Source: Oscillospiraceae bacterium (GTDB lineage: Bacteria > Bacillota > Clostridia > Oscillospirales > Oscillospiraceae). Taken from it: a stretch of DNA of 64,000 nucleotides. The notes beneath the pieces are model-generated. The model worked only from the letters and a program-made list of their open reading frames with translations. It was not told the origin of the DNA and did no database searches. Position 1 is the stretch's first letter; the number at the start of each line of letters is the position of its first letter. The position numbers were made by a program, and so were the translations under genes. Shown here piece after piece: positions 21,730 through 40,356 of the stretch. Where the stretch lies: NCBI GenBank assembly GCA_017458065.1, contig JAFTGD010000034.1, forward strand, positions 1 through 64,000. Direction: 5' to 3'.

Positions 21730-21924
21730 GTGATTCCGGGTCTGCTTTTTTCCCTTCCGTCTGAGACGCTTTGGCGATGAGCATTCCGCTTTTTTGTTGT
21801 TATGCGGGATGCGGGCAACACGCCGCAGCGGCCGCTGCGCTGCCCGGGGGAGCCGCCCGCCCATGACCGGTTCGGTAATAACTGCATTGCAGTCATTATA
21901 AAATATTTTTATGGAGGAAACACT
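21730..21924 (+). other. Long 5' leader of the sugar ABC operon
   Basis: About 195 nt between the promoter and the binding-protein ATG. Near its 5' end CAGAC/GTCTG plus TTTTTT resembles a weak terminator (21725-21751). Further down is a GC-rich stretch with CGCCGCAGCGGCC. I recognise no known riboswitch. GGAGGA directly precedes the ATG. Confidence 0.4.
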
Positions 21925-23028: not shown

Positions 23029-23051
23029 TCCAAATTTACAGTTGAATCCGC

Positions 23052-23077
23052 GCGGATGCAGGGCAACCTGCATCCGC
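23052..23077 (+). terminator. Intercistronic hairpin after sugar-binding protein
   Basis: Perfect 11-bp stem GCGGATGCAGG/CCTGCATCCGC closed by a GCAA tetraloop, no T tract. Likely a stabiliser or attenuator giving excess binding protein over membrane components. Confidence 0.75.
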
Positions 23078-23122
23078 ATTATACAAGCGCGTAAACCGCT
23101 CAAATAACAGGGAGTAAGCCAT

Positions 23123-24628
23123 ATGACGATCCTTGAAATGAAACACGTTTCCAAGGCCTTTGGCGGTTCTCAGGCCTTGTCAGATATCCAGTTTTCCGTT
23201 GAGGAGGGAGAAATCCACGCGCTCCTCGGAGAAAACGGCGCCGGAAAGTCAACGCTGATGAACATCCTCACCGGCGTCATTCCCGCCGACTCCGGTTCCA
23301 TCCGCTTCCTTGGGAAGGATTATCCTTCCCCCACCATCCAGCAGATGGAGGCAGCAGGGATTGCCTTTGTCCACCAGGAACTGAATGTCATCAACGACCT
23401 GACGGTCGCTGACAACATCTTTTTGTGCCGCGAGCTGAAAGGTCCGCTGGGCCTGCTTCGGCAGAAGGAGCAGATTGCCCGTGCCAGACAGCTGTTTGAA
23501 GATCTTGGTGTCGAGATGGATCCCAGCACCATGGTCTCGGAACTGAAAACCAGCGAAAAACAGCTTCTGGAAATCTGCCGCGCCCTTTATGTGGACGCCA
23601 AGCTTCTGATCCTCGACGAGCCGACCACGGCCCTGTCCAACAACGAAATCGAGCATCTTTTCGGGATCCTCCGCAAATTGAAAACTCAGGGGAAATCGTT
23701 CATCTTCATCTCACACAAAATGCCCGAGATCTTTGCCATCGCGGACCGCTATACCGTGCTGAGAAACGGAGAATACGTTGCCTCAGGAAATATAAAGGAC
23801 ACCAACGCCCACGCCGTTACCTCTCTCATGGTAGGCAGCCAGTATGTCAATGAGGACGTTTACGTCCCCCGCGAACTCGGTGACACGATACTGGAACTCC
23901 GGCACTACAGCGGCCAGGGCTTCCATGACATTGATCTGAGCGTCCGCCGGGGCGAGATTGTCGCTTTCACCGGTCTCGCAGGCTGCGGCGCCAGCGAGCT
24001 GATGCAGACCATGTTCGGCGCGCTGCCCTCAGAAGGCGGCCACATGCTTGTCCATGGAAAGAGCCTGGGCGGCAGCATTGTCCAATTTATGAAACGAGGC
24101 GTCGCCATGCTGCCTTCCAACCGAAAGGAAAACTCCGTGGTGCCGGACATGACCATCATGGAGAATTTCTATCTGGCCGAACACGAGCTCTCGAAAGGGA
24201 AGCATCCCTTCATCAAGGTGAAGGAAGAAACCGGCCGCTATGAGGCGCAGAAAGAGTCCCTGCACATCAAGGCGGCCAGCAGCGCAGACAGCATCCTGGC
24301 CCTCTCGGGCGGCAACCAGCAGAAGGTCTTCCTGGCGCGCTGGCTGAACATCGGCGCGGATGTTCTTCTCTTTGACAATCCGACCCAGGGCGTGGACGTG
24401 GGGGCGAAGGAAGAAATCTACAAGCTGATTCTTGACTTCGCTCAAAACGGCAAAACCGTGATCATCAACACCCTTGAGATTCCCGAGATTCAAAAAGTCG
24501 CTGACCGCTGCGTGGTCTTCTATGAAGGCCGGATCGTGAAGATCTTTGAACACAGCGAAGTCAACGAACACGACGTCATGCTCTATTCCACCAACGCCAT
24601 AGAGACGACACAGGAGGCAGCAGTATGA
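23123..24628 (+). CDS. Sugar ABC transporter ATP-binding protein (RbsA/MglA-like, double ATPase)
   Basis: A 501-aa fused ATPase with two nucleotide-binding domains. The first has Walker A GENGAGKS near 37-44 and Walker B LLILDEPTTALS near 160. The second is degenerate at its P-loop (GLAGCGASE, near 279), as is usual in RbsA proteins, but keeps a signature-like SGGNQQK near 397. It energises the permease encoded by the overlapping next gene. Confidence 0.92.
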   Translation: MTILEMKHVSKAFGGSQALSDIQFSVEEGEIHALLGENGAGKSTLMNILTGVIPADSGSIRFLGKDYPSPTIQQMEAAGIAFVHQELNVINDLTVADNIFLCRELKGPLGLLRQKEQIARARQLFEDLGVEMDPSTMVSELKTSEKQLLEICRALYVDAKLLILDEPTTALSNNEIEHLFGILRKLKTQGKSFIFISHKMPEIFAIADRYTVLRNGEYVASGNIKDTNAHAVTSLMVGSQYVNEDVYVPRELGDTILELRHYSGQGFHDIDLSVRRGEIVAFTGLAGCGASELMQTMFGALPSEGGHMLVHGKSLGGSIVQFMKRGVAMLPSNRKENSVVPDMTIMENFYLAEHELSKGKHPFIKVKEETGRYEAQKESLHIKAASSADSILALSGGNQQKVFLARWLNIGADVLLFDNPTQGVDVGAKEEIYKLILDFAQNGKTVIINTLEIPEIQKVADRCVVFYEGRIVKIFEHSEVNEHDVMLYSTNAIETTQEAAV

Positions 24629-25710
24629 ATAACGAGAAAAAAAGCTTTGGCGCGACATTAGGCCGGCTCTGGTCCCAGTACAGCTTTATTTTTGTGCTGG
24701 TCATCATCATGATCGGCTATGCCTTTACCATCCAGGCAAACGGCAACACCTTCAATTTTGGCCATATCGCGGCAATTCTGTCGAGCCAGAACACGGTCAT
24801 TGTAGGTACCATTGCCCTTGGCATGGCCTTCGTCATCATCACCGGGCAGATCGACCTCTCTGTCGGCTCTTCTCTGGTGCTGTGTACCGGCGCGACCATT
24901 GTCGTTTTCAATGTGACCAATTCCATTCCCTTGATGATCCTCACAGCACTTGCCGTCGGCGCGCTCTGCGGCGCTGTCAACGGTCTTCTGGTCGGTCTGG
25001 GCAAAATGCCGCCCTTTGTTGTCACGCTTGGCACCATGCTGATTTACCGCTCTCTGACGCTCTCGGTGGTACGCAAGGTTGATCCCGCTATCAGCGGCTC
25101 CTCCTCCAGCCAGTTTGCCATGCTCAGCTCCAACAGCAACTACATGGCGCTGCGCAAGACCTTTGGCGCGGGGAAGCTCAGCATCGGCAGCTTTTCACTG
25201 CCCTATATCTTCTTTGTGTTTCTGTTTATGGCGATTCTGTTCATCGTGATCTCCAGAAACACCAAGTACGGCAAGAGCGTATATGCCGTCGGCTCCAATG
25301 AGAAAAGCGCGCGCCTCGCAGGCATCAACGTCACGTGGGTGAAGATCTCCGTCTTCATTCTGACAGGGCTCTGCGTCGGCGTGGCCAGCATTCTGCAGGC
25401 CTGCAAAATCAGCAACGTCACCCCCGCCTCCTCCGGTGTGAGCTATGAGATGTACGCCATCGCCTCGGTGGTTCTGGCGGGCGTCAACATGGCCGGCGGC
25501 AAAGGCAAGCTGCTCGGCGTCATTTTCGGCGCTCTGTCTTACACCACCATCAACTTTATCATTGTCTCGATCCCCGGCCTGAGCGTCGACATACAGGACA
25601 CCTTCCAGGGCCTGGTCCTGATCATTGTCATCCTGATCCAGACGGTTGGTCCGGTGATCCGGGAGAACATCCAGCGCGCCCGGAAGCGCAAACAGTCCTC
25701 TGCCGCGTAA
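24625..25710 (+). CDS. Sugar ABC transporter permease (RbsC-like)
   Basis: A 361-aa permease with eight to ten helices and the family motif GQIDLSVGSSLVLC at about 73-86, plus VYAVGSNEKSARLAGINV (about 221-238) in the cytoplasmic coupling loop. Its ATG overlaps the ATPase stop by 4 nt (ATGA), giving translational coupling. It ends the operon. Confidence 0.92.
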   Translation: MNNEKKSFGATLGRLWSQYSFIFVLVIIMIGYAFTIQANGNTFNFGHIAAILSSQNTVIVGTIALGMAFVIITGQIDLSVGSSLVLCTGATIVVFNVTNSIPLMILTALAVGALCGAVNGLLVGLGKMPPFVVTLGTMLIYRSLTLSVVRKVDPAISGSSSSQFAMLSSNSNYMALRKTFGAGKLSIGSFSLPYIFFVFLFMAILFIVISRNTKYGKSVYAVGSNEKSARLAGINVTWVKISVFILTGLCVGVASILQACKISNVTPASSGVSYEMYAIASVVLAGVNMAGGKGKLLGVIFGALSYTTINFIIVSIPGLSVDIQDTFQGLVLIIVILIQTVGPVIRENIQRARKRKQSSAA

Positions 25711-25730
25711 AAATCTTTTGCCTTATACAC

Positions 25731-25758
25731 GGAGCACCCGCCTTTCGGCGGGTGCTCC
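25731..25758. terminator. Bidirectional terminator, sugar ABC operon end
   Basis: Perfect 12-bp stem GGAGCACCCGCC/GGCGGGTGCTCC with a TTTC loop. It sits 24 bp before the left direct repeat of the island, so before insertion it would have separated this operon from the convergent RNA methyltransferase gene. Confidence 0.85.
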
Positions 25759-25781
25759 GATTCGTTTTCTATACAGTTTTC

Positions 25782-25827
25782 AGCGCTTCCCCAGCTGCCA
25801 GAAAGCTACAGCCCCGGCGGCGGCCAC
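25782..25827. repeat. Left 46-bp direct repeat (attachment-site-like), relic of RNA methyltransferase 3' end
   Basis: These 46 bp match 37748-37793 at 45 positions (C/T difference at the fifth base). Read on the minus strand they encode VAAAGAVAFWQLGKR followed by a TGA stop, exactly the C-terminus of the methyltransferase whose intact copy ends at 37746. With no gene attached here, this is the displaced original 3' end, and the 12 kb between the repeats looks inserted. Confidence 0.85.
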
Positions 25828-25923
25828 ATGTTTCCTGTCTCAAACAATCATAGCCGTCCTCTGTTTCAAACCTCACGGTGCGCCAGGTCCGATTCAACTT
25901 GATGGGATAAATACGGAAATCCG

Positions 25924-27222
25924 TCAAATCCACATCAACTTTTTTGCTTCATTTGCCAGCTCCAGACGAAAATCCGGATGTGCAATATTGATCAAAGCGT
26001 TCGCCCGCTCCCTGAGGTTTTTCCCCCGCAAATGAGCAATTCCGTATTCTGTCACGACATAGTCTGCATAATTTCGGGGTATTGTTATCACAGAACCGGC
26101 ATCCAGTGTCGCCCGTATTTTAGAAAAGCCCTTCGCGGATTTGGAACTGAACGCCATGATGCCTCTGCCGCCCTTTGACCGTAATGCGCCATAGGCAAAG
26201 CACAGTGCTCCTCCTGACCCGGAAAATTGTCTGGTCCCGATAGCTTCAGAGGCGATTTGCCCCATCAGGTCCATTTCCACACAGGTATTGATAGATACGA
26301 AATTATCGTTCTTCGCTATTATGAACGGATCACATCCCCAGCTGCCGGGAGTAATGCGAAAGCTTTGATTGCTTTTCAAAGTTTCAAACAGGGCTGCGTC
26401 TCCTCTCGCAAAGGTGAAGATATGTTCACCCGGCAGGAAATTTTTCCTTTTCCCTGTGATAACGCCCTCTCGCACTAATTTGGCCATAGAGCTTGTAAGC
26501 ATCTCCGTATGCATCCCGAGATCATTCAGGTCCATACAGAGCTCGGCAATCGCATTGGGCAGGCCTCCGATTCCGAACTGGACGCAGTCTCCATCATGAA
26601 TCAGGCTGTGAACATTCCTCGCAACCTCTGCTTCTTCCGGAGAGGCGGTTTTGGATGGCATAACCATAATCGGCATATCTGTTTCAGTCAAAGCGGTCAC
26701 ATTGGAAATATGGATCTCTGTGCCGTTATTTACCCGTGGCAGGTTTGGGTTTACTTCCAGCAGCACCTTACCTTTGTTCTCCAGAACAGCCTTCAGGCAG
26801 TCTGATTCCCACATGTTACACAGGCCAATCTGGAAATTGCCGCTCTCATCCATGTCCGTTACTGCGGCAATGAACACCGTCGGATGATTTTCTCCAATCA
26901 GCCTGCCATTCATGCTCATATCCGCGGGGAAAAAGGATGAATTTCCCTTTGCCAGCCCATCCCTCATGTCCTTACCAAAGAAGAAGCCCTGCGTGAAAAT
27001 ATGACCTTCCATGCCGTCCATAGCCGGGAAAGGGTAATAATTGGCAAAATCTTTAAACACCTTCACATTATGAACACGCTGTGCAATGGTGTGAAACTGC
27101 GCGCCAAAAGAGAGTGGCGCGTTCCCGTCACCCGCAAAAACGACCACATCACCGGAGGAGATTTGAGACAGGCACTCCTCCAGTGTCGCTTTTTTGCGTT
27201 CGTATTCCATTCTGTAGTTCAC
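25924..27222 (-). CDS. Acetyl-CoA hydrolase/CoA-transferase family protein (4-hydroxybutyrate CoA-transferase-like)
   Basis: A 432-aa family I-type CoA-transferase. The catalytic glutamate region HTEMLTSS places Glu at residue 240, matching the position known for 4-hydroxybutyrate CoA-transferase; GIGGLPNAIAE precedes it, and FSGSGGALCFAYGA (near 334) is the glycine loop that binds CoA. Such enzymes swap CoA between acyl-CoA and acetate or another acid. It is third in the minus-strand operon after an enoate-reductase-like enzyme and BKACE. Here it may activate acetoacetate released by BKACE or recycle the acyl-CoA product. An alternative is plain butyrate/acetate CoA exchange. Confidence 0.88.
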   Translation of the reverse strand: MNYRMEYERKKATLEECLSQISSGDVVVFAGDGNAPLSFGAQFHTIAQRVHNVKVFKDFANYYPFPAMDGMEGHIFTQGFFFGKDMRDGLAKGNSSFFPADMSMNGRLIGENHPTVFIAAVTDMDESGNFQIGLCNMWESDCLKAVLENKGKVLLEVNPNLPRVNNGTEIHISNVTALTETDMPIMVMPSKTASPEEAEVARNVHSLIHDGDCVQFGIGGLPNAIAELCMDLNDLGMHTEMLTSSMAKLVREGVITGKRKNFLPGEHIFTFARGDAALFETLKSNQSFRITPGSWGCDPFIIAKNDNFVSINTCVEMDLMGQIASEAIGTRQFSGSGGALCFAYGALRSKGGRGIMAFSSKSAKGFSKIRATLDAGSVITIPRNYADYVVTEYGIAHLRGKNLRERANALINIAHPDFRLELANEAKKLMWI

Positions 27223-27299
27223 TCTTGTTCCCCCTCGTCTACGCTGCTTTCATAGCAACCTGCTGTAACAGTCGTGTTCGTGTTTCTTAGTGATTCGGG

Positions 27300-28136
27300 T
27301 CAGCGTCTTTTTACCCCAAGGATCTCCCGCGCTTCTTCCGCCGTTGCAATGTCGCGCCCTGCTGTTTTACCCAATTCAACAGCCTGCCGGACGTAGCTTT
27401 CGTTGGTTGCCAGAACACCTTTCTTCAGCCAGATTCCATCTTCCAGCCCTACACGAATACCATTTGCTCCGCCGGCTAAGCCTGCCAACAGCATCGGCAT
27501 ATGCCATCTTCCGATGCCTGTAATCGACCAGGTTGATCCTTCCGGCATGCAGTCAAGCAGGAACGACACATTCTTCATTGTGCCTTCCATCCCGCCGGGA
27601 ATTCCCATGATAAACTGGAAGTGGCAGGGAGCAGTCAGGATGCCATCCTTGACACACTGGCGCACATTGTTAAACATGGCCGTATCAAATATTTCGATTT
27701 CTGGCTTGGTCCCGGTCTCCTGACACACCTTTCCGAGTCGCTCCATCAGAGACGGGGGATTAAGATAAACAAACGCCTTTCCCCAGTTTATTGAGCCCGG
27801 ATTATAAGAGCACATCTCCGGTTTAATCGTTTCGATATGTGCAGTACGCAACTCGTCGCTTCCTACACCCCCGGTAGAAAGATTCAGGATTGCATCCAGG
27901 CCTTCTCGTTCCAGTGCATCAACAACAGCACTGTGTGCTTCTGCAAAACGATGGGTTTCCATGGACGCATGACCTTCATCATCTCGTACATGGATGTGGA
28001 TAATCGATGCACCTGCCTTGACGCAGGCTACAGCATCCCTGGCAATTTCTTCCGGAGTGTAGGGAACTGCCGGATTCATTTCTTTCGTCGTTCCGTTGCC
28101 GAGCAATGCGGCAGTAATAATGAGTTTTTGATTCAT
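27300..28136 (-). CDS. Beta-keto acid cleavage enzyme (BKACE, DUF849 / Kce-like)
   Basis: A 278-aa TIM-barrel enzyme. Family motifs are GNGTTKEMNPAVPYTPEEIA at 14-33, the metal-binding HxH at H47/H49 (IIHIHVRD), and GLEDGIW near 230 carrying the conserved acid. BKACE enzymes condense a beta-keto acid with acetyl-CoA and split it to acetoacetate plus a new acyl-CoA; known members act on 3-keto-5-aminohexanoate (lysine fermentation) or dehydrocarnitine. None of the other lysine-fermentation genes (aminomutases) is nearby, so the substrate is probably different. The hydroxyacid dehydrogenase at 34998 could supply the keto acid. Confidence 0.88.
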   Translation of the reverse strand: MNQKLIITAALLGNGTTKEMNPAVPYTPEEIARDAVACVKAGASIIHIHVRDDEGHASMETHRFAEAHSAVVDALEREGLDAILNLSTGGVGSDELRTAHIETIKPEMCSYNPGSINWGKAFVYLNPPSLMERLGKVCQETGTKPEIEIFDTAMFNNVRQCVKDGILTAPCHFQFIMGIPGGMEGTMKNVSFLLDCMPEGSTWSITGIGRWHMPMLLAGLAGGANGIRVGLEDGIWLKKGVLATNESYVRQAVELGKTAGRDIATAEEAREILGVKRR

Positions 28137-28176
28137 TTTAGTAACCTTCCTTCATTTCTTCCGTTCATATTTCTTT

Positions 28177-30123
28177 TTACGCATCCAACGCGGCAGTATA
28201 CCCGTCCAGAACATCTTCCATAATGCGAGCTGTCTTAGCTGCATCACCGATCACATGCACATTCGAATGTTTCCCCTTCAGAGCCTGATAGATTTTCCCG
28301 CAGGACCTCACGCCTTTACACACGATTACTTTGTCACAGGGAAGTTCATAAACTTCTTCTGTATCAACATTCTGGAATATGACTCTGTCATCTCCGATTT
28401 TCAAGAGCTTCCGCCCTGAGATAAGTACTGTATTGTGGAGGTTGAGTGTCCGCATGATCTCTCCGATGATAACGTTGCTGCCTCCTCCCGAGGCGACTCG
28501 TTTTGACTCTCCGAGAATCGTAACCATATTGCCCTGCTCGCATAGGTATTCTGCTGTTTCCAAAGCGGTAAGACCGGTTCCAAGAAGCACAACGCTCTTG
28601 TTTTTCAAACTGCACCGGCCTCCCAGGATCTCTGGAGGTGTTGTCACCAGCTTGCTGTCAATTCCATCAACATCGGGTAAATAGGGTGCTGAACCGGTAG
28701 CGTCAATGATAAGATACGGTTTCAATTTCAGTATTTCATCAGGAGTGATTTCATAGTTCAGGCAGATATCGACGCCTGATTTTTCCAGCTGTGTTTTCTC
28801 GAAGTCGATGAACCATTGCATTTTATCCTTCTTGGGCGCCTGTGCAGCCAGCCATATCTGTCCGCCCAGGTGATCTTCCCGTTCATAGAGGGAGACACGG
28901 AAATTGCGCATGGCCAGTATTCTCGCACATTCCATTCCGGCAACTCCGGCTCCAACAACAATGCAGAGTTTCTCTCCCCCATCTCGGATAATCTGACGCT
29001 TTTCCAGTTCATGACCGCATTCAGGATTTACAGAGCAGACAATAGGCTTCTCAGCCTTAATATTGTCAATACAACGCAGACAGGAAATGCACCTGCGAAT
29101 ATCCTCGGGATGTCCTGCTGCAGCCTTTGCCGGCCATTCAGGATCAGCAAGGAAGCTTCGACCCATCCCTATGAAATCCATATACCCTTCATTGAGAAGC
29201 TGTTCTGCATAATCAGGATCGCGAATCACAGTTGTGGCAATCACAGGAATATTGACCATGGTTCGGATTGCCTTAGCGAGATGGCGCCGCCACCCTTGCT
29301 GATAGGTCACCGGCTCAAGAGAATGTGAACGCCCGTTTTCTGTTCCTCCTACAGTTACGCTTATGGCATCCACACGATGCATCTCCAATAGCTGGCACAG
29401 GCGGATCGATTTTTCCAGATGATAGCTCTCATCACCCATATAGTCCTCAGCTGACACCCGGACCGAAATCGGATACTCTCTCCCAACCGCAGCCCGTACT
29501 GCGTCCACAATCTCGAGAAGCAACCTGCACCTGTTTTCAAAGCTTCCCCCATACTCGTCATTACGTTTGTTGAAATAGGGACTTAGGAACTCATGCAGCA
29601 GATAGTGATGCGCCGCGTGAATCTCTATGCCGTCGAATCCCGCTCTCTTAGCCAGGTTTGCTGCATATACATAGTCCTGCACCAGCGCCTGTAATTCTTC
29701 TCTTTCAAACGCCCTCGCCTCCTGCCGCAGGAAACGGGATGTAATCCCACTGGGTCCCGGAAGCGGATTTCCCCCATTCGCCGCATTGGTGGAAATCACT
29801 CCCGGGTGCAGCAGCTGAGGAAAAATAGCGCAATCGTATTGATGGACTGCCTCGGTAAGTTTCTTCAGCATCGGAAGCTGTCCTTCGTCTGTTAAACAGA
29901 TCTGACGCTGTGCTCGCCTTCCATGCTCATCATTTACGCAGGCCACCTCGGTGGTCAGTAATGCTGCGCCGCCTTTTGCTCTCTCGACATAGTAAGCGAT
30001 AAACGCATCTGTAATCGTTCCGTCGGGATTTGCCAGGCCGCAGCCCATTGGTGTCATAACCAGCCGGTTCTTTATTTTCAACTGATTAATATATGCGGGG
30101 GAGAAAAGAGTTGGGTAAGACAT
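28177..30123 (-). CDS. NADH:flavin oxidoreductase / 2,4-dienoyl-CoA reductase (FadH, enoate reductase-like)
   Basis: A 648-aa Old-Yellow-Enzyme-type flavoprotein. The N-terminal TIM barrel (1-330) has EIHAAHHYLLHEFLSPYFNKR typical of the active-site segment. The [4Fe-4S] motif is CISCLRCIDNIKAEKPIVC, and a C-terminal FAD/NAD(P)H domain has GAGVAGME. These enzymes reduce alpha,beta-unsaturated acids or dienoyl-CoA, sometimes demethylate N-methyl compounds. First gene of the operon with BKACE and CoA-transferase, divergent from the FadR-type regulator. Substrate not deducible. Confidence 0.87.
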   Translation of the reverse strand: MSYPTLFSPAYINQLKIKNRLVMTPMGCGLANPDGTITDAFIAYYVERAKGGAALLTTEVACVNDEHGRRAQRQICLTDEGQLPMLKKLTEAVHQYDCAIFPQLLHPGVISTNAANGGNPLPGPSGITSRFLRQEARAFEREELQALVQDYVYAANLAKRAGFDGIEIHAAHHYLLHEFLSPYFNKRNDEYGGSFENRCRLLLEIVDAVRAAVGREYPISVRVSAEDYMGDESYHLEKSIRLCQLLEMHRVDAISVTVGGTENGRSHSLEPVTYQQGWRRHLAKAIRTMVNIPVIATTVIRDPDYAEQLLNEGYMDFIGMGRSFLADPEWPAKAAAGHPEDIRRCISCLRCIDNIKAEKPIVCSVNPECGHELEKRQIIRDGGEKLCIVVGAGVAGMECARILAMRNFRVSLYEREDHLGGQIWLAAQAPKKDKMQWFIDFEKTQLEKSGVDICLNYEITPDEILKLKPYLIIDATGSAPYLPDVDGIDSKLVTTPPEILGGRCSLKNKSVVLLGTGLTALETAEYLCEQGNMVTILGESKRVASGGGSNVIIGEIMRTLNLHNTVLISGRKLLKIGDDRVIFQNVDTEEVYELPCDKVIVCKGVRSCGKIYQALKGKHSNVHVIGDAAKTARIMEDVLDGYTAALDA

Positions 30124-30193
30124 GGTCGGCCTCCTCCAGACTATTCTCTGCTTCCATCTGCATACTATCTGTGCCGGCAGCAGAAGAAATACA

Positions 30194-30222
30194 TTGCAAA
30201 GAAAAACTTTCTATTTTATAAT
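30194..30222 (+). promoter_or_regulatory. Promoter of the FadR-type regulator gene
   Basis: TTGCAA, 17-nt spacer, perfect TATAAT, about 40 nt before ATG 30264. Confidence 0.7.
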
Positions 30223-30263
30223 AAGCGACATTAAACGATATTTTGCTGTAAGGAATAAGGCGT

Positions 30264-30989
30264 ATGAATCATTCAGAAAAACGTAATACCAGCCAAAAAA
30301 TTGTAGATTATCTGCTGGATCAGATACAGTCCGGTGTTCTCCGCAAAGGTTCGCGTCTGCCGACAGAGCATGATCTGGCAGAGCTTTTGGGTGTCAGCCG
30401 TATTCCTCTTCGCGAAGCGATCTGTGCACTTCGGACCGTTGGGCTTCTTGAAGCCCGGCAGGGCGGCGGCACATATGTGACAACGAACTGCGATCCTGCT
30501 ATCTTAGGACGCATGCTGTATGACTATGCGTTGCTGGAAAATGTAGACCTGCACCAAATTGTTGACGTCCGCATTTTGCTTGAGCCCGAGGCTGCCAGGC
30601 AAGCCGCTCTGCAGGGTACCCAATTGCAGAAAGAAGCGATCATGAAACTTTCCGATGAGTACTCCCAGGTCGTTGAAAACTATTTGGCTGACCCTGAAAA
30701 CCATTCCCGTATGGCAAGTTTGGATCGAGAATTCCACCAGGCAATCGCAAAGGCAAGCCACAATGAGTTTCTATGGATGCTTCTTGTTGTCTCAGGGACC
30801 TCTTTCAACGAACTGAACTCTAAAAGCTCCCGTTCTCTGGACGCATGGGGTGCAAGAACCAGAAAGCTGTTCTCTGAGCAGCATCGCGACATTGCACAGG
30901 CCATATTGGCAGGAGATGCATCACAGGCGAGGAAAATAATGGAAAAACATCTTCGCCTGATAAAAGGTTCCTTGACGACACATCCATAA
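30264..30989 (+). CDS. GntR-family transcriptional regulator, FadR subfamily
   Basis: A 241-aa regulator with an N-terminal winged helix-turn-helix (about 8-75, including SRLPTEHDLAELLGVSRIPL and the wing GGGTYVT) and an all-helical FCD effector domain (about 90-235) with conserved DVRILLEPEAARQAA and FHQAIAKASHN. FCD domains bind organic acids, often through a metal. It lies in the middle of the catabolic island; TNGTNNNACNA-type sites typical of this subfamily occur at 33.6-33.8 kb between the permease and thiolase transcription units, so it is the likely local regulator. Confidence 0.9.
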   Translation: MNHSEKRNTSQKIVDYLLDQIQSGVLRKGSRLPTEHDLAELLGVSRIPLREAICALRTVGLLEARQGGGTYVTTNCDPAILGRMLYDYALLENVDLHQIVDVRILLEPEAARQAALQGTQLQKEAIMKLSDEYSQVVENYLADPENHSRMASLDREFHQAIAKASHNEFLWMLLVVSGTSFNELNSKSSRSLDAWGARTRKLFSEQHRDIAQAILAGDASQARKIMEKHLRLIKGSLTTHP

Positions 30990-31009
30990 GCCTTCTATCC
31001 TTTTCTTTC

Positions 31010-31044
31010 AACCGGCAGGATCTGATATTCAGTTCCTGCCGGTT
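31010..31044. terminator. Hairpin between convergent genes
   Basis: Eleven-bp stem AACCGGCAGGA/TCCTGCCGGTT between the regulator and the lactonase-like gene. Confidence 0.7.
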
Positions 31045-31072
31045 CTGTATTGCTGGTAGATTCGCTGTTTTA

Positions 31073-32167
31073 TTATTTCTTCGGCTCAAACTTTGCGGCT
31101 AGTTTCATGTAATTTGGCACTCTGGTTTTGTCGATGTTTACCGCGCCGCTTGGATGCCGGTAACGTCGCATCGCTTTGTCTCTCGGATACTGGTAAAGTC
31201 CGCCCAATTGCATAATACAGGGTGTGATTTCCGGAATCATCTCTTCAGCCAGCCGCTCGAACTGATTGACAAGCAAGTTCGGATCCCATGCAGTATGAGC
31301 AAGGTTCTCGTAGTGGTCCGGAATAATCACTTTGCATTGCAGCGCATCTGCAAGACGAACCACATCATACGGGCTCATCTTGTCTGTAGCTCCCGGACGG
31401 TTATAGCCCATATTGGTTGTGACAACATCGATGTCAAAAAACTCCGGAAAATAAGCATATCCGTCGTTATACCACGTGTCACCGGTGAACAGAATATTTC
31501 CTCCCGAGGTCTTGACCAGATATGACACGCAGCAGTCATCATAAGGAAGGAGTTCCTTTCCTCCTCCTGTACGTATTGCCGTATCGTCGTAGCACGGCAG
31601 AACTTGTACTGTGGCCCCTGGCACTTCAAACGTATCGCCGACCGTCACTTGATTGATACGCGGAGTCGGAACTTCAAATTCATCCAGTCGCTTGGCGACA
31701 GTTTTCGGTCCGTAGAAGGGGCAATCCGTGGTCTGACTTGCCGCCTTAACAGAATAAATATCGCAATGGTCCTGATGTACATGTGTGATCAGGCAAGCGT
31801 CCAGTTTCCCGAACTGCCAGGGGTCGATGATGACCGGGGGAAGATTCAGCCAGTTCAAGCTGTCCGCTCCACACTGGCGGCATACTCCGCAGGAACTGAT
31901 CTCCGTATAGCCGGATCCTCCCGTGAACATATCAATCCAGAGGATACCACCCTCGTCTGTTTTCAAAATCCAGGAAGCTCCCTGAATCCACCACATGGCA
32001 ACTTGACCTTTCGGGACTTCATAGCTCATGATCTGATGGTTCAAATAACTGCCCCATCCAGGGAAGCACTCATGGAGCCATTTTTCGCGATCCAGGTCGT
32101 GGTTGGTGTTCTGATACGTTCCGGAAACAAGGCCGCGGCCATCTGTCATCTGTACCATAGTGTTCAT
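31073..32167 (-). CDS. UlaG-like metallo-beta-lactamase-fold lactonase
   Basis: A 364-aa protein closely patterned on L-ascorbate-6-phosphate lactonase UlaG: REKWLHECFPGWGSYLN near 27-43, VAMWWIQGASWILKT, the zinc-binding HVHQDH near residue 128-133, FTGDTWY, and TDKMSPYDVVRLADAL. UlaG opens a sugar-acid lactone. No ascorbate PTS genes are present, so another lactone or cyclic ester is probable. It follows the permease gene by 14 nt and is probably cotranscribed with it. The HxHxDH ligands are intact. Confidence 0.82.
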   Translation of the reverse strand: MNTMVQMTDGRGLVSGTYQNTNHDLDREKWLHECFPGWGSYLNHQIMSYEVPKGQVAMWWIQGASWILKTDEGGILWIDMFTGGSGYTEISSCGVCRQCGADSLNWLNLPPVIIDPWQFGKLDACLITHVHQDHCDIYSVKAASQTTDCPFYGPKTVAKRLDEFEVPTPRINQVTVGDTFEVPGATVQVLPCYDDTAIRTGGGKELLPYDDCCVSYLVKTSGGNILFTGDTWYNDGYAYFPEFFDIDVVTTNMGYNRPGATDKMSPYDVVRLADALQCKVIIPDHYENLAHTAWDPNLLVNQFERLAEEMIPEITPCIMQLGGLYQYPRDKAMRRYRHPSGAVNIDKTRVPNYMKLAAKFEPKK

Positions 32168-32181
32168 CTCCTTTTTAAGTT

Positions 32182-33552
32182 TTAATGTCCAGCTCTGTCA
32201 GGATTCGCAAATGTCTTATAACCTATAAGCGTATAGATTGCACCGACAGCGAAGAGTGCGAGCAGTACATACTGGATCGTGACGGCCAGCCCCTGGAAGT
32301 TCAGCCACCAGAGATAGATGGACAGAATCGTAGGGATAAGCGTAACTGCCCAGAGCGCGCCCTTTGACATATGCCACTTTGATTTTTCCCAGATTTCCGG
32401 GTAGAACTTCGGAAGGCTCAGCAGGCCAAAGTTGGGGATAATATTCACCAGGATCTGCAGATTTGTTGCGGCCTTGAGGACATTGGTATTGGCTGCGCTG
32501 ATACCGTCCGCCGGAACGAAAACCAGAAGAGCAAGCGCCGCAAGCAGATATACCGCCTGAATACGATAAGGAACGCCATATTTGTTGGTGACGCCGAACC
32601 ACTTGGGTGCCCAGCCATCACGGATGGCCGCCTGCACCGGCGTTGAGTACCATCCAAATGAACCATTGATGGTCGTAGCAATTGCAAGGCATGCTCCGCC
32701 GAAGATGAAGAACAGCTGCAGCGGCTTCATGTTTTCAAAAATTGCAGCGGCTGCGTTGACAACAGAATTTGCCGGTCCTCGGAACAACAAGGTTCCCGGT
32801 GTCGCAGCACCGTCCGGCATCGGGACCAAAGGAAGGGATCCCACTGTCGCAATAGAAATACCGGCAAACAGCAGACCGGCGCAGAGTGTGATGAGCAGAC
32901 AGGCTTTGGGCAGGCTGCGTTCAGCGTCCTCGGCAATTCCTCCGAGTTCCAGCATCGCCATGCCGCCGCCCATACAGAAGACAAGGAGTGCCACCGCATT
33001 GAAGAAGCCTCCGACTCCGTGGGTAAGAAACGCTTCTTTATTGAACACAAACATCGTATCCATATGGACAAACCCGAACACAATAAACGTTGCAAACGCG
33101 AGGAAAAGCACAATATTCATGATCCTCTGAACTTTTGCGGCACTCTTTAATCCGAAATAGTTCGTGATGTAGAAAACAATGCCGATCAGAGCCGCAACCA
33201 ACTTTGGATTGAGCGTTGTGAAGACAGACGTGAAAAAGATGGCAAACGCAGTAATATTCGCGAACATTGCAATTCTGCCGATAAAAAAGATCCAGAAATA
33301 AAAGCCTCCCATAGCCGGGCTGAATGCTTCCTTACTCAAGGAGTAAGACACACCCTGTCTCGGTACAATTGAGGCTGCGATAATAACGGGGAACATCATG
33401 AAAAAAATCGCGAACGCGCCTACGACATAGGCAAGGAAGGTACTGCCGCCGGTATACATCGCTGCTACACCGGTGAGTGAAAAGACTGCGGAGCCCAGCG
33501 TAAAGCCGAGGCCGATCGCAAACAATTCACGGAAGCTTAGTTTCTTGTTCAT
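32182..33552 (-). CDS. APC-family amino acid/amine permease
   Basis: A 456-aa polytopic transporter with about 12 helices. Start 33552 (MNKKLSFRELFAIGLGF) is chosen for its GGAGAAG site and because helix 1 with the APC motif GFTLGSAVFSLTG begins directly after it; a longer reading frame would run through the promoter and operator region. It imports an amino acid, amine or similar organic cation/zwitterion. As the only transporter in the island it probably brings in the pathway substrate. First gene of the permease-lactonase unit. Confidence 0.85.
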   Translation of the reverse strand: MNKKLSFRELFAIGLGFTLGSAVFSLTGVAAMYTGGSTFLAYVVGAFAIFFMMFPVIIAASIVPRQGVSYSLSKEAFSPAMGGFYFWIFFIGRIAMFANITAFAIFFTSVFTTLNPKLVAALIGIVFYITNYFGLKSAAKVQRIMNIVLFLAFATFIVFGFVHMDTMFVFNKEAFLTHGVGGFFNAVALLVFCMGGGMAMLELGGIAEDAERSLPKACLLITLCAGLLFAGISIATVGSLPLVPMPDGAATPGTLLFRGPANSVVNAAAAIFENMKPLQLFFIFGGACLAIATTINGSFGWYSTPVQAAIRDGWAPKWFGVTNKYGVPYRIQAVYLLAALALLVFVPADGISAANTNVLKAATNLQILVNIIPNFGLLSLPKFYPEIWEKSKWHMSKGALWAVTLIPTILSIYLWWLNFQGLAVTIQYVLLALFAVGAIYTLIGYKTFANPDRAGH

Positions 33553-33596
33553 TGTCTCTGCTTCTCCTTTGTTGTTCAGAGCTATGCTCCGATTAT

Positions 33597-33620
33597 TTGT
33601 ATTATCAATTTGTAATACAT
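33597..33620. promoter_or_regulatory. Two imperfect FadR-type operator sites
   Basis: TTGTATTATCAA (33597-33608) and TTGTAATACAT (33610-33620) lie side by side just downstream of the -10 of the permease promoter. The second differs by one base from the TNGTNNNACNA consensus of FadR-subfamily GntR regulators. Confidence 0.5.
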
Positions 33621-33624
33621 AACA

Positions 33625-33653
33625 TTTGTAAATGAAGAGGCCGAAAATGTCAA
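33625..33653 (-). promoter_or_regulatory. Promoter of the permease-lactonase unit
   Basis: TTGACA, 17-nt spacer, TACAAA on the minus strand, about 75 nt before ATG 33552. Confidence 0.5.
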
Positions 33654-33739
33654 TAGAGAAATGGAAATTCACCATAAATTCGTTAGAAGTACACAAAATC
33701 CAGCTATTATCTTTGTTAATTTTGCTACTAAAATATTTA

Positions 33740-33768
33740 TTGTAATACAAATTAATTCGTGTTAATAT
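33740..33768 (+). promoter_or_regulatory. Promoter of the thiolase operon overlapping a perfect FadR-type operator
   Basis: The palindrome TTGTAATACAA (33740-33750) fits TNGTNNNACNA exactly and overlaps the -35 TTGTAA. A 17-nt spacer leads to TAATAT (33763-33768). A further imperfect site TTGTAATATGT is at 33798-33808. This fits repression by the FadR-type regulator encoded at 30264. Confidence 0.6.
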
Positions 33769-33830
33769 GACATTGGTTTATTTATTTTATCGATTATTTG
33801 TAATATGTATTTAGAGAGGAGCTAATCTGC

Positions 33831-34985
33831 ATGAATCCACGTTCTGCTGTTATTGTCGCGTATGGCCGAAGCGCCTGCTGTCGGGCAAGAAAAGGGCACC
33901 TCGCCGATACCCATCCCATCGAGTACTCTGCTCAGGTACTTCAGGGTGTCCTGGCTAAGGTGCCCCAACTTCCCCATGAGCGCATCGACGACGTCATTCT
34001 CGGTTGTGCGATGCCCGTCAATCAGATGGATTTTAATGCCGCACGCAGTGTCGCCCGGCGGGCGGGCCTGCCAAACAGCGTTCCGGGCCAGACCATCAAC
34101 CGTTTCTGTTCTTCCTCCCTTCAGGCAATCGGAACCGCGGCAAACGCGATTCTCGCCGGGCAGATGGATTGTGTGATCGCCGGGGGCACGGAAGCAATGA
34201 GTATGTGCTTCCATCAGCCGCAGGAAGAATATAAGGACAAGCTGCTGGATGAACAGGATATCGGCATCTACATGTCTATGGGCGAGACTGCAGAGCGGAT
34301 CGCAGAACGCTATCACATCTCTCGAAGGGAGATGGAAGAGATGGCCGTTGAATCTCACCGCCGCGCGCACGAAGCTCAGGTGAACGGCAAACTGGCTCCC
34401 AGTATTATTCCTGTTACCAACGTACATGGAGAAAAGATCACCGAAGACGAAGGAATCCGTCCGGGGACCAATATGGAAACCCTGGCAGGCCTCAAACCCT
34501 GCTTTAGGGAAAACGGTCTCGTTACAGCCGCTACTTCTTCTCAAACGACGGACGCTTCTGCTTTTGCCATAGTGATGGCTTCCGACCCGGCAGAAGAACT
34601 GGGGATCCGGCCTCTTGCCCGCTTTATCAGCTTTGCTGTCGCCGGCTGTGAGGCACAGGTCATGGGGCTTGGCCCCATCTATGCTGTGCCGAAGGCGATG
34701 GCGCGCGCGGGGCTGACCGTTGACGACATGGACGTGATCGAGCTCAACGAAGCCTTCGCCTCCCAGGCCATCGCCTGTATGCGTGAACTGAAGCTTCCCC
34801 CGGAAAAGGTCAATCCCTATGGCGGCGCGATGGCGCTTGGCCATCCGATGGGCGCAACCGGCGTTTTTCTTACCGGAAAGGCGCTGGACTACCTGCAGGA
34901 TACCGGCGGCCGATATGCGCTGGTCACCATGTGCATTGGCGGTGGAATGGGCGCCGCTGGAATTTTTGAGTATCTCGGATCATAA
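33831..34985 (+). CDS. Thiolase (acetyl-CoA C-acyltransferase)
   Basis: A 384-aa thiolase with all catalytic residues: nucleophile C93 (NRFCSSSLQ), H338 (MALGHPMGATG) and C368 (MCIGGGMGAAG). It cleaves acetoacetyl-CoA or another 3-ketoacyl-CoA with CoA. AGGAGC precedes the ATG. First of three genes with a hydroxyacid dehydrogenase and an IlvD-type dehydratase. In the island it would turn acetoacetyl-CoA, formed through BKACE and the CoA-transferase, into two acetyl-CoA. Confidence 0.9.
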   Translation: MNPRSAVIVAYGRSACCRARKGHLADTHPIEYSAQVLQGVLAKVPQLPHERIDDVILGCAMPVNQMDFNAARSVARRAGLPNSVPGQTINRFCSSSLQAIGTAANAILAGQMDCVIAGGTEAMSMCFHQPQEEYKDKLLDEQDIGIYMSMGETAERIAERYHISRREMEEMAVESHRRAHEAQVNGKLAPSIIPVTNVHGEKITEDEGIRPGTNMETLAGLKPCFRENGLVTAATSSQTTDASAFAIVMASDPAEELGIRPLARFISFAVAGCEAQVMGLGPIYAVPKAMARAGLTVDDMDVIELNEAFASQAIACMRELKLPPEKVNPYGGAMALGHPMGATGVFLTGKALDYLQDTGGRYALVTMCIGGGMGAAGIFEYLGS

Positions 34986-34997
34986 GGAGGAACAGAG

Positions 34998-35933
34998 ATG
35001 AATTCGAAAAAGGTAGTCATTGCAGGTGCGGGAACGATGGGCGCCTCGCTGGCTCAGGTCTATGCGCTGGCCGGCTGGGATACCATTCTGTATAACCGCA
35101 GCGAGTCCGGTCTGCAGCGGGCGCAAAGTCTGATTGAGTTGAACCAGCGCACTTTGGTGGACGAGGGGATCGTGAGTGCGGAAGAATCAGGCGCCATGTA
35201 TACTCGTATCCAGATGTCGACCGATAAGGGAAACTTTACAGACGCAGCCCTCGTCGTGGAGAACATCGTAGAGAACCTGGATGCCAAGCGCGCTTTCTGG
35301 GCGGAGATTTCCCCCACGGTTCCTGCCGAAGCGCTGCTCGCCACCAACACCAGCGGCCTGCATATCACTGAGATTGCCGAGGCCGTAACCCTGCCGGAAC
35401 GCTTTATGGGCCAGCACTGGCTGAATCCGCCCCATCTTCTGCCTCTGTGCGAAATCATCGCCGGGGAGAAAACCAGCGAGGAAGCCATCCGGAAAATGCG
35501 CAAGTTGGTCACAGGACTGAACAAGCAGCCGGTTGTCGTCAAGGACATCAACGGTTTTATCATTAACCGTATTCAATTTGCCGTGCTGCGTGAGGCACTG
35601 TACATCGTCGACAGCGGCGCTGCCACCTTTGAGGACGTGGACACTGTGCTTAAGGCAGGCATGGGACTGCGCTATGCAGCACTTGGCCCCTTCGGTGTGG
35701 CGGACTTCGGCGGTCTGGATACCTTCGAGCATATCAACAGCTACCTCAATGCCGATCTCTGCGACGCCAAAGAGGGCAGCGCAAGACTGAAAGCAATGGT
35801 GGAAGCTGGCAAACTGGGGGTGAAGTCCGGGGAAGGCTTCTATGACTACTCCGGCGAAAAGGCGCAGAAGGCCATCCGGGATCGAGATCGCCTGTACATT
35901 GAGCTCGCGAAAGTTCTGTATTTTAGAAAGTGA
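34998..35933 (+). CDS. 3-hydroxyacyl-CoA dehydrogenase family protein, possibly acting on a free 3-hydroxy acid
   Basis: A 311-aa dehydrogenase. The Rossmann motif GAGTMGASLA is at 10-19; the end of the second strand reads LYNRSES rather than an acidic residue, which may favour NADP. The catalytic His-Glu pair is H140 (MGQHWLNPP) and E152. The NPPHLLPLCEII stretch is closer to my memory of L-carnitine and L-gulonate 3-dehydrogenases, which use free acids, than to 3-hydroxybutyryl-CoA dehydrogenase. With BKACE in the island, oxidation of a free 3-hydroxy acid to a beta-keto acid is attractive; a CoA-ester substrate remains possible. Confidence 0.82.
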   Translation: MNSKKVVIAGAGTMGASLAQVYALAGWDTILYNRSESGLQRAQSLIELNQRTLVDEGIVSAEESGAMYTRIQMSTDKGNFTDAALVVENIVENLDAKRAFWAEISPTVPAEALLATNTSGLHITEIAEAVTLPERFMGQHWLNPPHLLPLCEIIAGEKTSEEAIRKMRKLVTGLNKQPVVVKDINGFIINRIQFAVLREALYIVDSGAATFEDVDTVLKAGMGLRYAALGPFGVADFGGLDTFEHINSYLNADLCDAKEGSARLKAMVEAGKLGVKSGEGFYDYSGEKAQKAIRDRDRLYIELAKVLYFRK

Positions 35934-35942
35934 GGATTCCCT

Positions 35943-37604
35943 ATGAGAAGTGATTTGATGAAAACCGGCGTCGACCGGATTCCGCACCGCTCTCTCTTCC
36001 GTGCACTCGGCCTGACGGACGAGGAACTGGAACGGCCCATCATTGGTGTTGTCAGCGCCAAAAATGAGATTATCCCGGGGCACATGCACCTGGACAAGAT
36101 TGCCGATGCAGTCAAGGCCGGTATCCGTATGGCCGGCGGTACACCTGTTGAGTTCCCCGCGATCGGGGTCTGCGACGGGATCGCCATGAACCACGAAGGT
36201 ATGTTCTATTCTCTGCCGAGTCGGGAGCATATTGCTGATTCCGTGGAAATCATGGCCACAGCCCATCCTTTCGACGGTCTTGTTCTGATCCCCAACTGCG
36301 ATAAAATCGTTCCGGGTATGCTGATGGCCGCTTTGCGGCTGAATATCCCTGCCATCTTCTGCAGCGGCGGCCCGATGATGCCGGGCCATGCCAACGGCAG
36401 ACAAGTAGCGCTAACGGATGCTTTCGAGGCGCCGGGTGCTGTCCGGACCGGGAAAATGACTGCCGAGCAGGCGCAGGATATTGTAGAGCACGCCTGCCCA
36501 GGCTGCGGCTCCTGCGCCGGAATGTTTACGGCGAATTCCATGAACTGTATGACGGAGATCCTTGGCATGGCCCTGCCCGGCAACGGCACCATCCCCGCGG
36601 TTGAGAGTCAGCGCATTCTGCTGGCAAAGCACACCGGCATGAAGATCATGGATCTGGTGCGCGACGATGTACGCCCGCGTGATATTGTTACGGAGAAGGC
36701 TATTCGCAACGGTCTTGCTGCCGATATGGCACTGGGCTGCTCCACCAACACGATGCTGCATCTGCCTGCCATTGCGCATGAAGCAGGGATCCCCTTTGAC
36801 CTCAACGGTGTGAACGCAGTAAGCGACCGGGTTCCCCATCTGGTCAAGCTCAACCCCGCCGGCGTTCACTGTCTGGTTGATTTGAACAACGCCGGAGGCC
36901 TGAGCGCTGTGATGAAGCGCTTGGACAGTCTCGGCCTTATTGACCCCTCCGCCCGTACAGTGGACGGCACCTGGGCAGAGCGCATTCAAAAGGCAGTGAT
37001 TTTCGACGTGAGTGTGATCCGGGATCGGGAACACGCTTATTCTCAAACCGGCGGTCTGGCGATTCTGTATGGGAATCTCGCACCGGACGGTGCTGTGGTC
37101 AAAAAGGGCGCTGTACTGCCGGAGATGATGGTGCACACAGGCCCGGCCAGGTGCTTCGACAGCGAAGAAGACTGTTGTGAGGGCCTCTACAGCGGTAAGG
37201 TTGTGCCGGGCGACGTGGTAGTAATCCGCTTCGAGGGGCCGAAAGGCGGTCCCGGCATGCGGGAGATGCTCTCCCCCACGGCGGCGCTCGCCGGTATGGG
37301 GCTTGACTCCACCTGTGCGCTGGTGACAGACGGACGCTTCTCCGGCGTAAGCCGCGGAGCCTCCATCGGTCATGTCTCTCCAGAGGCTGCAGCCGGAGGT
37401 TTGATGGCTTATGTGAAGGATGGCGATCTGATCGCCATCGACATCCCCGGGCACAGTATTCAGCTTCTGGTGGATGAAGATGAGATTGCCCGGCGTAAGG
37501 AGGCCCATTCGCCCCAACCCCCAAAACAAGTGGCGGGATATCTCAAGCGCTATCGTGCCATGGTCAGTTCTGCAAACCTTGGAGCGATCCTTAGAACAGA
37601 TTGA
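35943..37604 (+). CDS. IlvD/Edd-family dehydratase (dihydroxy-acid or sugar-acid dehydratase)
   Basis: A 553-aa Fe-S dehydratase with the family cysteine motifs [10 protein letters not shown] (C near 119) and [19 protein letters not shown] (near 182-200), [10 protein letters not shown], and a C-terminal [19 protein letters not shown]. Members remove water from 2,3-dihydroxy acids: the branched-chain intermediate (IlvD), 6-phosphogluconate or sugar acids. No ilvBCE genes are nearby and it is third in the thiolase operon, so a catabolic sugar-acid-type role is more likely than isoleucine/valine synthesis. It starts 9 nt after the previous stop. Confidence 0.87.
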
Positions 37605-37642
37605 AAAACGAATCCCTGCCAGAATTGACAGGGATTCGTTTT
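37605..37642 (+). terminator. Intrinsic terminator of the thiolase operon
   Basis: Perfect 14-bp stem AAAACGAATCCCTG/CAGGGATTCGTTTT immediately after the dehydratase stop. The following 100 bp to the right direct repeat is AT-rich and carries no gene. Confidence 0.85.
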
Positions 37643-37745
37643 ATTCAGATGATTTTATTTTCTGTTAATTCGATAAAATACTCCAAGTTGAAGTGGTGAT
37701 AGAGGAAGATCTGTAAAAACGGGACCAACACGGTTCTTGTCTGCG

Positions 37746-38582
37746 TTAGCGTTTCCCCAGCTGCCAGAAAGCTACAGCCCCGGCGGCGGCCACGTTCAGC
37801 GAGTCCACCCCGTGGGCCATGGGGATCTTCACCGTATAGTCGCAGTCGGCGATGGTCCGGTCCGCAAGGCCGTCGCCCTCCGTCCCGAGGATCACCGCAA
37901 GCCTCTCCTCCGCCATGAGATCGGGATCGTCAATGCTGACGGATTCGTCCCGCAGGGCCATCGCGGCAGTCTTGAAGCCATAACCCCGGATCAGTTCCAT
38001 TCCCTTCTCCGGCCAGTCGGTCAGCTCCTCGCCGATCCAGGCCCAGGGGATCTGGAACACCGTCCCCATACTGACACGGATACAGCGCCGGTACAGCGGG
38101 TCCGTAGACGCCGGCGTCAGCAGGATCGCGTCCATCCCCATGGCCGCGGCCGAGCGGAAAATGGCCCCCAGGTTCGTGGGGTTCATCACGTCCTCCAGCA
38201 CCACGACCCGGCTGCTGTTCTGCAGCAGGTCCTCCGCTTGCGGAAGCGGCGGGCGCTTCATCGCGCAGAGGACGCCCCGTGTCAGCGGGAAACCCGTTAA
38301 CTGTTTGAGGCATTCTTCCTCCGCCACATAGACCGGCACATCCGGACAGCGGGCGAGGATCTCCTGCCCCTTCTCCCGGCCGTCCAGCATCTTGGGCAGC
38401 ATCAGGAGGGATTCCGGCTCGCAGCCCCCCTCCAGCGCGCGTTCGATCACATGGGGGCTCTCGGCGATGAAGAGCGAGTTCTCGATGCCGTGGTGACTGC
38501 GCAGCTGGGTCTCGGTCAGGCGGGCATAGATATCCAGTTCCGGCGCGTGAAAATCTGTGATTTCAATGAATGAATGGCTCAT
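37746..38582 (-). CDS. TrmH/SpoU-family RNA 2'-O-methyltransferase
   Basis: A 278-aa SPOUT methyltransferase. The N-terminal substrate-binding domain (1-115) precedes the knot domain with its three motifs: NPTNLGAIFRSAAAMGMDA near 135-153, ILGTEGDGL near 225 and VDSLNVAAAGAVAFW near 259-273. It uses S-adenosylmethionine to methylate a ribose in rRNA or tRNA. The gene is intact, but its last 15 codons are also found at 25782-25827, showing that its 3' end served as an insertion target. Confidence 0.9.
   Translation of the reverse strand: MSHSFIEITDFHAPELDIYARLTETQLRSHHGIENSLFIAESPHVIERALEGGCEPESLLMLPKMLDGREKGQEILARCPDVPVYVAEEECLKQLTGFPLTRGVLCAMKRPPLPQAEDLLQNSSRVVVLEDVMNPTNLGAIFRSAAAMGMDAILLTPASTDPLYRRCIRVSMGTVFQIPWAWIGEELTDWPEKGMELIRGYGFKTAAMALRDESVSIDDPDLMAEERLAVILGTEGDGLADRTIADCDYTVKIPMAHGVDSLNVAAAGAVAFWQLGKR
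37748..37793. repeat. Right 46-bp direct repeat within the RNA methyltransferase 3' end
   Basis: Partner of 25782-25827 (45/46 identical). It forms the last 15 codons of the methyltransferase and the first base of its stop, here TAA instead of the TGA of the left copy. It is the expected product of integration that regenerates the target gene's end. Confidence 0.85.
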
Positions 38583-39248: not shown

Positions 39249-39316
39249 ATGGTCTCCACACCCTTAAGCGAGATTGTTTGATATCATACAAAAAACGGTC
39301 CCTGTGGATAAGTGCT

Positions 39317-40234: not shown

Positions 40235-40251
40235 CTGATCGTGCCCTCATA

Positions 40252-40356
40252 TTATCTGTGGTATGATGATTTCTCCGTCGCCGCAATGCCATGGACAGCC
40301 GCAGAAAGGATTTTGACACCGGCGTCCAACACTGCCTGTTCTACTTGAAACGTCAT
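40252..40356 (-). CDS. Possible 34-aa small ORF upstream of the PanE-like gene
   Basis: ATG at 40356 has GGGGAG 9 nt upstream and encodes 34 residues (begins MTFQVEQAVLDAGVKILSAA) ending 17 nt before the PanE-like start. A good promoter lies at 40428-40456. It could be a leader peptide, a small gene or a relic; I recognise no family. Confidence 0.3.
   Translation of the reverse strand: MTFQVEQAVLDAGVKILSAAVHGIAATEKSSYHR

Follow-up and report, generated by a model that had tools for sequence, protein, structure and literature searches.

A gene-end repeat bounding a twelve-kilobase catabolic island beside a SpoU-family methyltransferase gene in an Oscillospiraceae bacterium: a candidate integrase-less, cis-mobilizable-like element

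Cis-mobilizable elements (CIMEs) are defined as decayed integrative and conjugative elements (ICEs) or integrative and mobilizable elements (IMEs) that no longer have the genes for recombination and transfer but retain their attachment (att) sites (PMC7563491). In the available text of that survey, the CIMEs of Streptococcus salivarius carry 1.2-13 kb of cargo, often metabolic, and are found at the 3' ends of protein-coding genes such as fda, rpsI and rpmG; its authors state that single CIMEs are undetectable by their own method (PMC7563491). The ssrA islands of Dehalococcoides, as presented in the accessible part of their description, are catabolic and have a duplicated gene 3' end at their borders, and 15 of them are without an integration module (PMC3146451). 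The present analysis concerns an island of about 12 kb with nine metabolic or regulatory genes in an Oscillospiraceae bacterium, a relative of rumen microbes (assembly GCA_017458065.1, contig JAFTGD010000034.1, positions 1 to 64,000, hereafter the window). The island lies between two copies of a 46-bp sequence, one of which forms the 3' terminus of the gene for a SpoU-family RNA 2'-O-methyltransferase. It was considered, with a probability of roughly 0.5, as a horizontally acquired, integrase-less, CIME-like element that entered at this gene end.

Like the S. salivarius CIMEs, this island consists of cargo alone and is framed by direct repeats, with one repeat restoring the 3' end of its protein-coding target gene; its size falls within the 1.2-13 kb range and its cargo is metabolic (PMC7563491, available text). 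Unlike them, it stands alone, with no related ICE, IME or integrase known at the methyltransferase site. It is also comparable to the vcr-type genomic islands (vcr-GI) of Dehalococcoides, which are catabolic, lie between a gene 3' end and its repeat, and in some cases are without an integration module, but which differ by a tmRNA target, a 20-bp repeat, many tandem islands and a known serine integrase, DsiB (PMC3146451, accessible part). Two other systems share the type of target. The rumA ICE of S. salivarius also uses an RNA methyltransferase gene, but one of another family and with a serine integrase (PMC7563491), and the Mycobacterium abscessus prophage integration system pIF05 also targets a SpoU-like gene, with an integration site predicted in the sixth codon (5' end). 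As far as the texts available go, neither corresponds to a 3'-end-restoring insertion in this methyltransferase gene, and no mobile element at this SpoU 3' end is described in the literature found on genomic islands, SpoU, integrases and attB, as far as it was accessible. The island resembles a solo CIME, as a candidate member of the class whose recognition by an integrase is putative.

Direct repeats (22-120 bp, at least 88% identical, less than 45 kb apart) were searched by comparing the whole 105,401-bp contig with itself, which yielded three: the 46-bp pair, a tandem array at 46150-46396, and one pair 1.8 kb apart. The 46-bp pair, reported in an earlier note made from the letters of the window, was confirmed at 25782-25827 and 37748-37793, with 45 of 46 positions identical and the sole mismatch at repeat position 5. 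Read in the direction of the gene, the shared stretch begins 15 codons before the methyltransferase end and extends to the first base of the stop codon, and similarity breaks off abruptly on either side of it. The note's reading of the two copies also stood: the right copy is the C-terminus and stop of the methyltransferase (37746-38582, PF00588), and the left copy codes for an identical run of 15 terminal residues followed by a stop. A few codons upstream of the left copy, another stop interrupts its reading frame; this copy therefore has no gene body and is not a gene. Both differences between the copies near the 3' end (AAG/AAA in the repeat, TGA/TAA for the stop) are synonymous. The target gene is therefore intact and restored, with the same 15 residues and stop on both sides, and the two edges of the island carry direct repeats comparable to attL and attR, whose att function is putative.

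Within the 3.6-Mb genome (83 contigs), the 46-bp core was found in two places, which are the two island edges. A chance repeat was ruled out by the 45/46 match, by these being the only two places of the core in the genome and by the contig-wide repeat scan. The usual target-site duplications of transposons are far shorter than 46 bp, and a duplication of this kind was ruled out by the length of the repeat and by the absence of any transposase family among the Pfam hits of the nine proteins. No tRNA was found in the window, which sets aside a tRNA-type integration site.

The G+C content, in 1-kb intervals, was 43-53% from about 26.0 to 34.0 kb and 55-60% from about 34.0 to 37.5 kb; that of the left flank (20-25.5 kb) was 53-59%, and that of the right flank was uneven (47-62%). 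The left two thirds of the island, described earlier as more A+T-rich than the flanks, are so in comparison with the left flank. The G+C content at third codon positions (GC3) was 0.49-0.58 in the six left genes of the island and 0.62-0.68 in the thiolase, dehydrogenase and IlvD genes; it was 0.72-0.83 in genes of the left flank (ATPase, up1 and the ATP-binding cassette [ABC] transporter genes) and 0.832 in the methyltransferase gene. As the GC3 of the island is below that of the methyltransferase and left-flank genes, the island was considered as foreign, perhaps composed from two origins. The copies of the repeat sit exactly at both edges of this composition-shifted block, which favours integration. 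The methyltransferase gene itself looks native, given its GC3 and the absence of any fall in identity to its nearest relative (L033) in the last, 3' bin.

No integrase, transposase or relaxase family is present among the Pfam hits of the nine island proteins, and 24 recombinase queries taken from the same genome (several of them wrong-frame open reading frames [ORFs], e.g. L130, L133 and L142) gave 0 matches against 277 six-frame stretches of the interval. The absence of an integrase or transposase between the repeats, as claimed in the note, was thereby upheld, and Pfam and NCBIfam scans together with these six-frame queries placed no integrase, relaxase or conjugation genes inside the island, as is the case for CIMEs. 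In the genome as a whole, 11 tyrosine-recombinase and 14 resolvase-family matches were found.

The 3' flank of the methyltransferase gene was compared among relatives using the best 80 of 286 homologous stretches, of which nine close ones (L033-L041) have a methyltransferase 87-93% identical. In four of the nine (L035, L037, L039, L041), the next gene after the methyltransferase, about 180-280 bp away, is the ATPase gene of 19671-20411; three have other cargo between these two genes (2.0 kb in L034, 3.9 kb in L038, 5.6 kb in L033). The remaining two are uninformative (no ATPase gene in the 13.4-kb flank of L036; contig end after 224 bp in L040). The gene-end repeat is present in 0 of these nine loci, which excludes the possibility, raised in the note as a refutation, that all relatives share both repeats. 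Island genes (E <= 1e-15) were absent beside the methyltransferase 3' end in 60 flanks and 80 loci, from genomes partly overlapping. Since this flank differs among relatives and the island is missing there, it appears to be a spot where lineages differ, and the island would most simply be a gain. The cargo of L033, L034 and L038 was also examined by eye from ORFs, and comprises an ABC/FtsX-like transporter set; a CoA-transferase-like gene; and two TPR-like lipoprotein genes.

Under the proposed mechanism, the incoming molecule, possibly a circular intermediate, would have brought along a copy of roughly the final 46 bp of the methyltransferase gene. Recombination of this copy with the chromosomal one would have put the element's copy at the gene, restoring 15 residues and the stop, while the former gene end, including its TGA and the hairpin downstream, would have been displaced to the far edge of the island; the left copy would then be the older one. 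The recombinase would either have acted in trans or have been lost along with the rest of a larger element, hence the term CIME-like; any present mobility is putative. We infer the involvement of a recombinase from the anatomy of the repeat, at about even odds. Serine-integrase sites share only few bases, and a stretch of 46 bp in common is more in keeping with a tyrosine recombinase or with homologous recombination. On account of this length, the repeat resembles the att core of a tyrosine recombinase more than that of a serine one, and insertion by a serine integrase was disfavoured. That the 3' end of this gene is a so far undescribed att site for a stand-alone, integrase-less cargo module moved wholly in trans, and the island an example of a class of solo, gene-end-restoring catabolic cassettes missed by integrase-based island finders, is distinctly unlikely.

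Several results weigh against integration by a recombinase. The identity ends at the stop codon, as expected of homologous gene ends. Imperfect inverted-repeat arms are typical, though not universal, of tyrosine-integrase cores; here the best arms of the core match at 5 of 8 positions, a score equalled or exceeded by 262 of the 264 46-bp windows of the methyltransferase gene, so that the core shows no such arms. No direct 8-mer is common to both island ends as candidate recombinase arm sites. The note had predicted an empty site in which the methyltransferase gene runs directly into the hairpin at 25731-25758, but this junction (ABC operon, hairpin, methyltransferase) was not found in the relatives compared, where island-free genomes have a different neighbour. 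Homologous ABC operons occur in other genomes of the genus (about 3-3.9 kb at 72-87% DNA identity), with no methyltransferase on the stretch compared, and the sequence past the ABC permease is unrelated in the five homologous loci compared; for these reasons the predicted empty junction could not be shown, and the ABC operon itself belongs to the variable stretch. The other refutation envisaged in the note, that the empty arrangement never occurs, therefore applies to the exact junction among the relatives examined, and does not apply if any 3' flank free of island and repeat is counted, since those of the relatives are.

The use of this gene end as a target elsewhere was searched in 149 homologous 3' flanks (136 covering 1.40 Mb and 13 covering 0.16 Mb; 109 distinct), after loci L040, L047, L064 and L082 were dropped as too short. 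Among the distinct flanks, 96 are at least 3 kb long, 85 at least 5 kb, 28 at least 10 kb and 25 at least 15 kb. The gene end is repeated in 0 of the 149, a count of low power for a 12-kb element: with 28 distinct flanks of at least 10 kb, an element of the length of the island could escape in most of them, an adjacent integrase less often. Exact matches of 14-15 bp to the gene end in five flanks (L246, L256, L257, L293, L299) were taken as chance. No ICE or IME using this target was detected in these flanks. ORFs resembling recombinases are present in 6 of the 136 flanks (the hits in L256 including one to a wrong-frame query) and in 0 of the 13, the closest at 4.6 kb from the gene end. When compared with 400 genomes of the family, the core gave a match at E <= 0.05 in 157, and the strongest listed matches examined are methyltransferase ends; additional matches elsewhere in a genome were examined for G291 only, where they correspond to two full methyltransferase paralogues. 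The core had no match on plasmids, and a degenerate gene-end pattern had no exact match in viral contigs, which also bears against integration. The earlier proposal of site-specific integration is thus retained in part: the island is foreign, missing from the 3' flanks of relatives and placed at a variable spot, while the recombinase is deduced and the gene end is not repeated in other flanks.

The most serious rival, which we regard as somewhat unlikely, is a homology-anchored insertion without recombinase, in which the left copy would be the stump of the recipient's own gene end. Either a donor with the cluster beside its methyltransferase 3' end would have entered by a RecA crossover within the gene on one side and an illegitimate join on the other, 46 bp before the recipient's gene ends, or a circular molecule with the 46-bp stretch in common would have come in by a single crossover. 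Such an insertion accounts for the missing integrase and att architecture, and, as well as the recombinase reading does, for an identity that ends at the stop codon, with both differences synonymous; it also has a documented process, homology-facilitated illegitimate recombination, which is reported from three species with natural competence and, though very rarely, from E. coli (PMC3240628). It predicts, however, a donor with IlvD beside the methyltransferase, whereas the flanks and loci searched above hold no island gene at that position, and the methyltransferase gene has neither a foreign GC3 nor a fall in identity towards its 3' end. Moreover, 46 bp is short for a RecA-dependent crossover.

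The site may instead have held a larger ICE, IME or prophage with its own integrase, later shrunk by internal deletion. The very definition of CIMEs as decayed ICEs and IMEs (PMC7563491, available text) and the recombinase complement of the genome speak for such decay, but nine mostly intact-looking genes, short spacers, no recombinase-like fragment in the 277 six-frame stretches and distances of only some 96 bp and 143 bp from the repeats to the closest gene ends make it improbable. False joining of two molecules or strains through the shared 46 bp is highly improbable: a 46-bp repeat can join contigs in a low-k short-read assembly, and the genome is in 83 contigs, but both junctions lie inside one 105-kb contig, and a real sequence comprising the 46 bp and the island would still be needed somewhere. 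Relative to these explanations, integration of a CIME-like element was kept as the preferred reading, the locus being most likely a foreign, lineage-specific island whose edges resemble attL and attR.

The features of the region are given in Table 1. The nine metabolic or regulatory genes announced between the repeats were verified by Pfam and NCBIfam scans; IlvD and the thiolase pass NCBIfam cut-offs, and the other seven were identified by Pfam domains. Judging from family names, a role in the fermentation of an amino or hydroxy acid via beta-keto acids and CoA esters is plausible.

Table 1. Coordinates of the island, its repeats and flanking features in the window
Feature	Position	Strand	Remarks
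P-loop ATPase gene (CbiA/ParA-type domain)	19671..20411	-	direct follower of the methyltransferase in 4/9 close relatives
ABC transporter operon (PF13407 binding protein, ABC ATPase, PF02653 permease)	21802..25710	+	sugar type likely
Terminator-like hairpin between ABC operon and left copy	25730..25759	+	reads in ABC operon direction
Left (distal) copy, attL-like	25782..25827	+	stop codon TGA at 25780-25782
Acetyl-CoA hydrolase/CoA-transferase family gene	25924..27222	-	Pfam; nearest genus relatives 82-83% aa identical
BKACE (beta-keto acid cleavage enzyme family)	27300..28136	-	Pfam
NADH:flavin oxidoreductase with pyridine nucleotide-disulphide oxidoreductase domain (BaiCD/enoate-reductase type)	28177..30123	-	Pfam
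GntR/FCD transcriptional regulator	30264..30989	+	Pfam
Metallo-beta-lactamase-fold hydrolase	31073..32167	-	Pfam; top NCBIfam L-ascorbate 6-phosphate lactonase, under cut-off
APC-family amino-acid permease	32182..33750	-	Pfam; true start probably inside ORF
Thiolase (acetyl-CoA C-acyltransferase)	33831..34985	+	Pfam; passes NCBIfam subfamily cut-off
3-hydroxyacyl-CoA dehydrogenase family	34998..35933	+	Pfam
Dihydroxy-acid dehydratase IlvD	35943..37604	+	passes NCBIfam TIGR00110 cut-off
Inverted repeat between IlvD and methyltransferase	37605..37645		by eye: two-way terminator; absent from scan list (loop limit 8)
Right copy, methyltransferase gene 3' end	37748..37793	+	stop codon TAA at 37746-37748
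SpoU-family RNA 2'-O-methyltransferase (PF00588), 278 aa	37746..38582	-	C-terminus VAAAGAVAFWQLGKR; GC3 0.832

A donor of the island was not found by searches of genomes of the family, order and genus. The whole-island DNA query matched 207 of 400 family genomes, and each of the matches listed lies within one gene (IlvD, thiolase or dehydrogenase). BKACE was found at E <= 1e-80 in 4 of 394 order genomes including this one (at most 56% identical); among 102 genomes of the genus, four, this one included, have the 3-hydroxyacyl-CoA dehydrogenase at E <= 1e-60 (64-66% identical). The cluster is not conserved around these hits, the sole recurrence being a thiolase next to BKACE at 2 of 3 loci. The CoA-transferase is the only island gene for which near relatives were seen in the genus, in three genomes (identity in Table 1). 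A plasmid origin was set aside, the core having no match there, as was a phage origin: the sole core match in the phage collection (MT836128.1, 81% over 43 bases) is a whole methyltransferase gene on an apparently mis-filed bacterial contig. This record, labelled Bacteriophage sp., has the appearance of an ordinary contig of a bacterium and contains an aconitase-like ORF as well.

Islands without an integrase escape the usual island finders. The present locus is a clear candidate with defined edges (a 46-bp core, two junctions, one predicted circle) in a group here largely represented by metagenome-assembled genomes. If the island is mobile, its CoA-transferase, BKACE, thiolase and 3-hydroxyacyl-CoA dehydrogenase would be a fermentative set gained as a single unit.

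Further observations were made around the methyltransferase gene and in homologous loci. The nearest recombinase seen in the flanks is a large serine-recombinase-like ORF located 4.6-6.4 kb past the methyltransferase (L221, genome G033), with no gene-end repeat there. The two full SpoU methyltransferase paralogues of G291 lie about 44 kb apart on one contig (contig 48; L287 and L288), and G038, G055 and G078 likewise have two strong methyltransferase matches each. On the 5' side of the methyltransferase, positions 38724-43451 hold GNAT, PanE/ApbA, LigT/2'-5' RNA ligase-like, ferredoxin-type and TlpA-like genes and a RelB/ParE-type toxin-antitoxin pair; the GC3 of three genes of this segment is 0.65, and that of the last two 0.80-0.83. 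In seven close relatives, these genes are missing from between the methyltransferase and the small gene at 43783, which lie about 240-370 bp apart.

The tandem array at 46150-46396 consists of the 3' end and terminator of an old yellow enzyme (OYE)-like gene (44117-46177, + strand) in three copies of 75-76 bp and a partial fourth. It is present in 0 of the 7 relatives compared, and its unit was found only here in the genome; it represents a second gene-end duplication close to the island.

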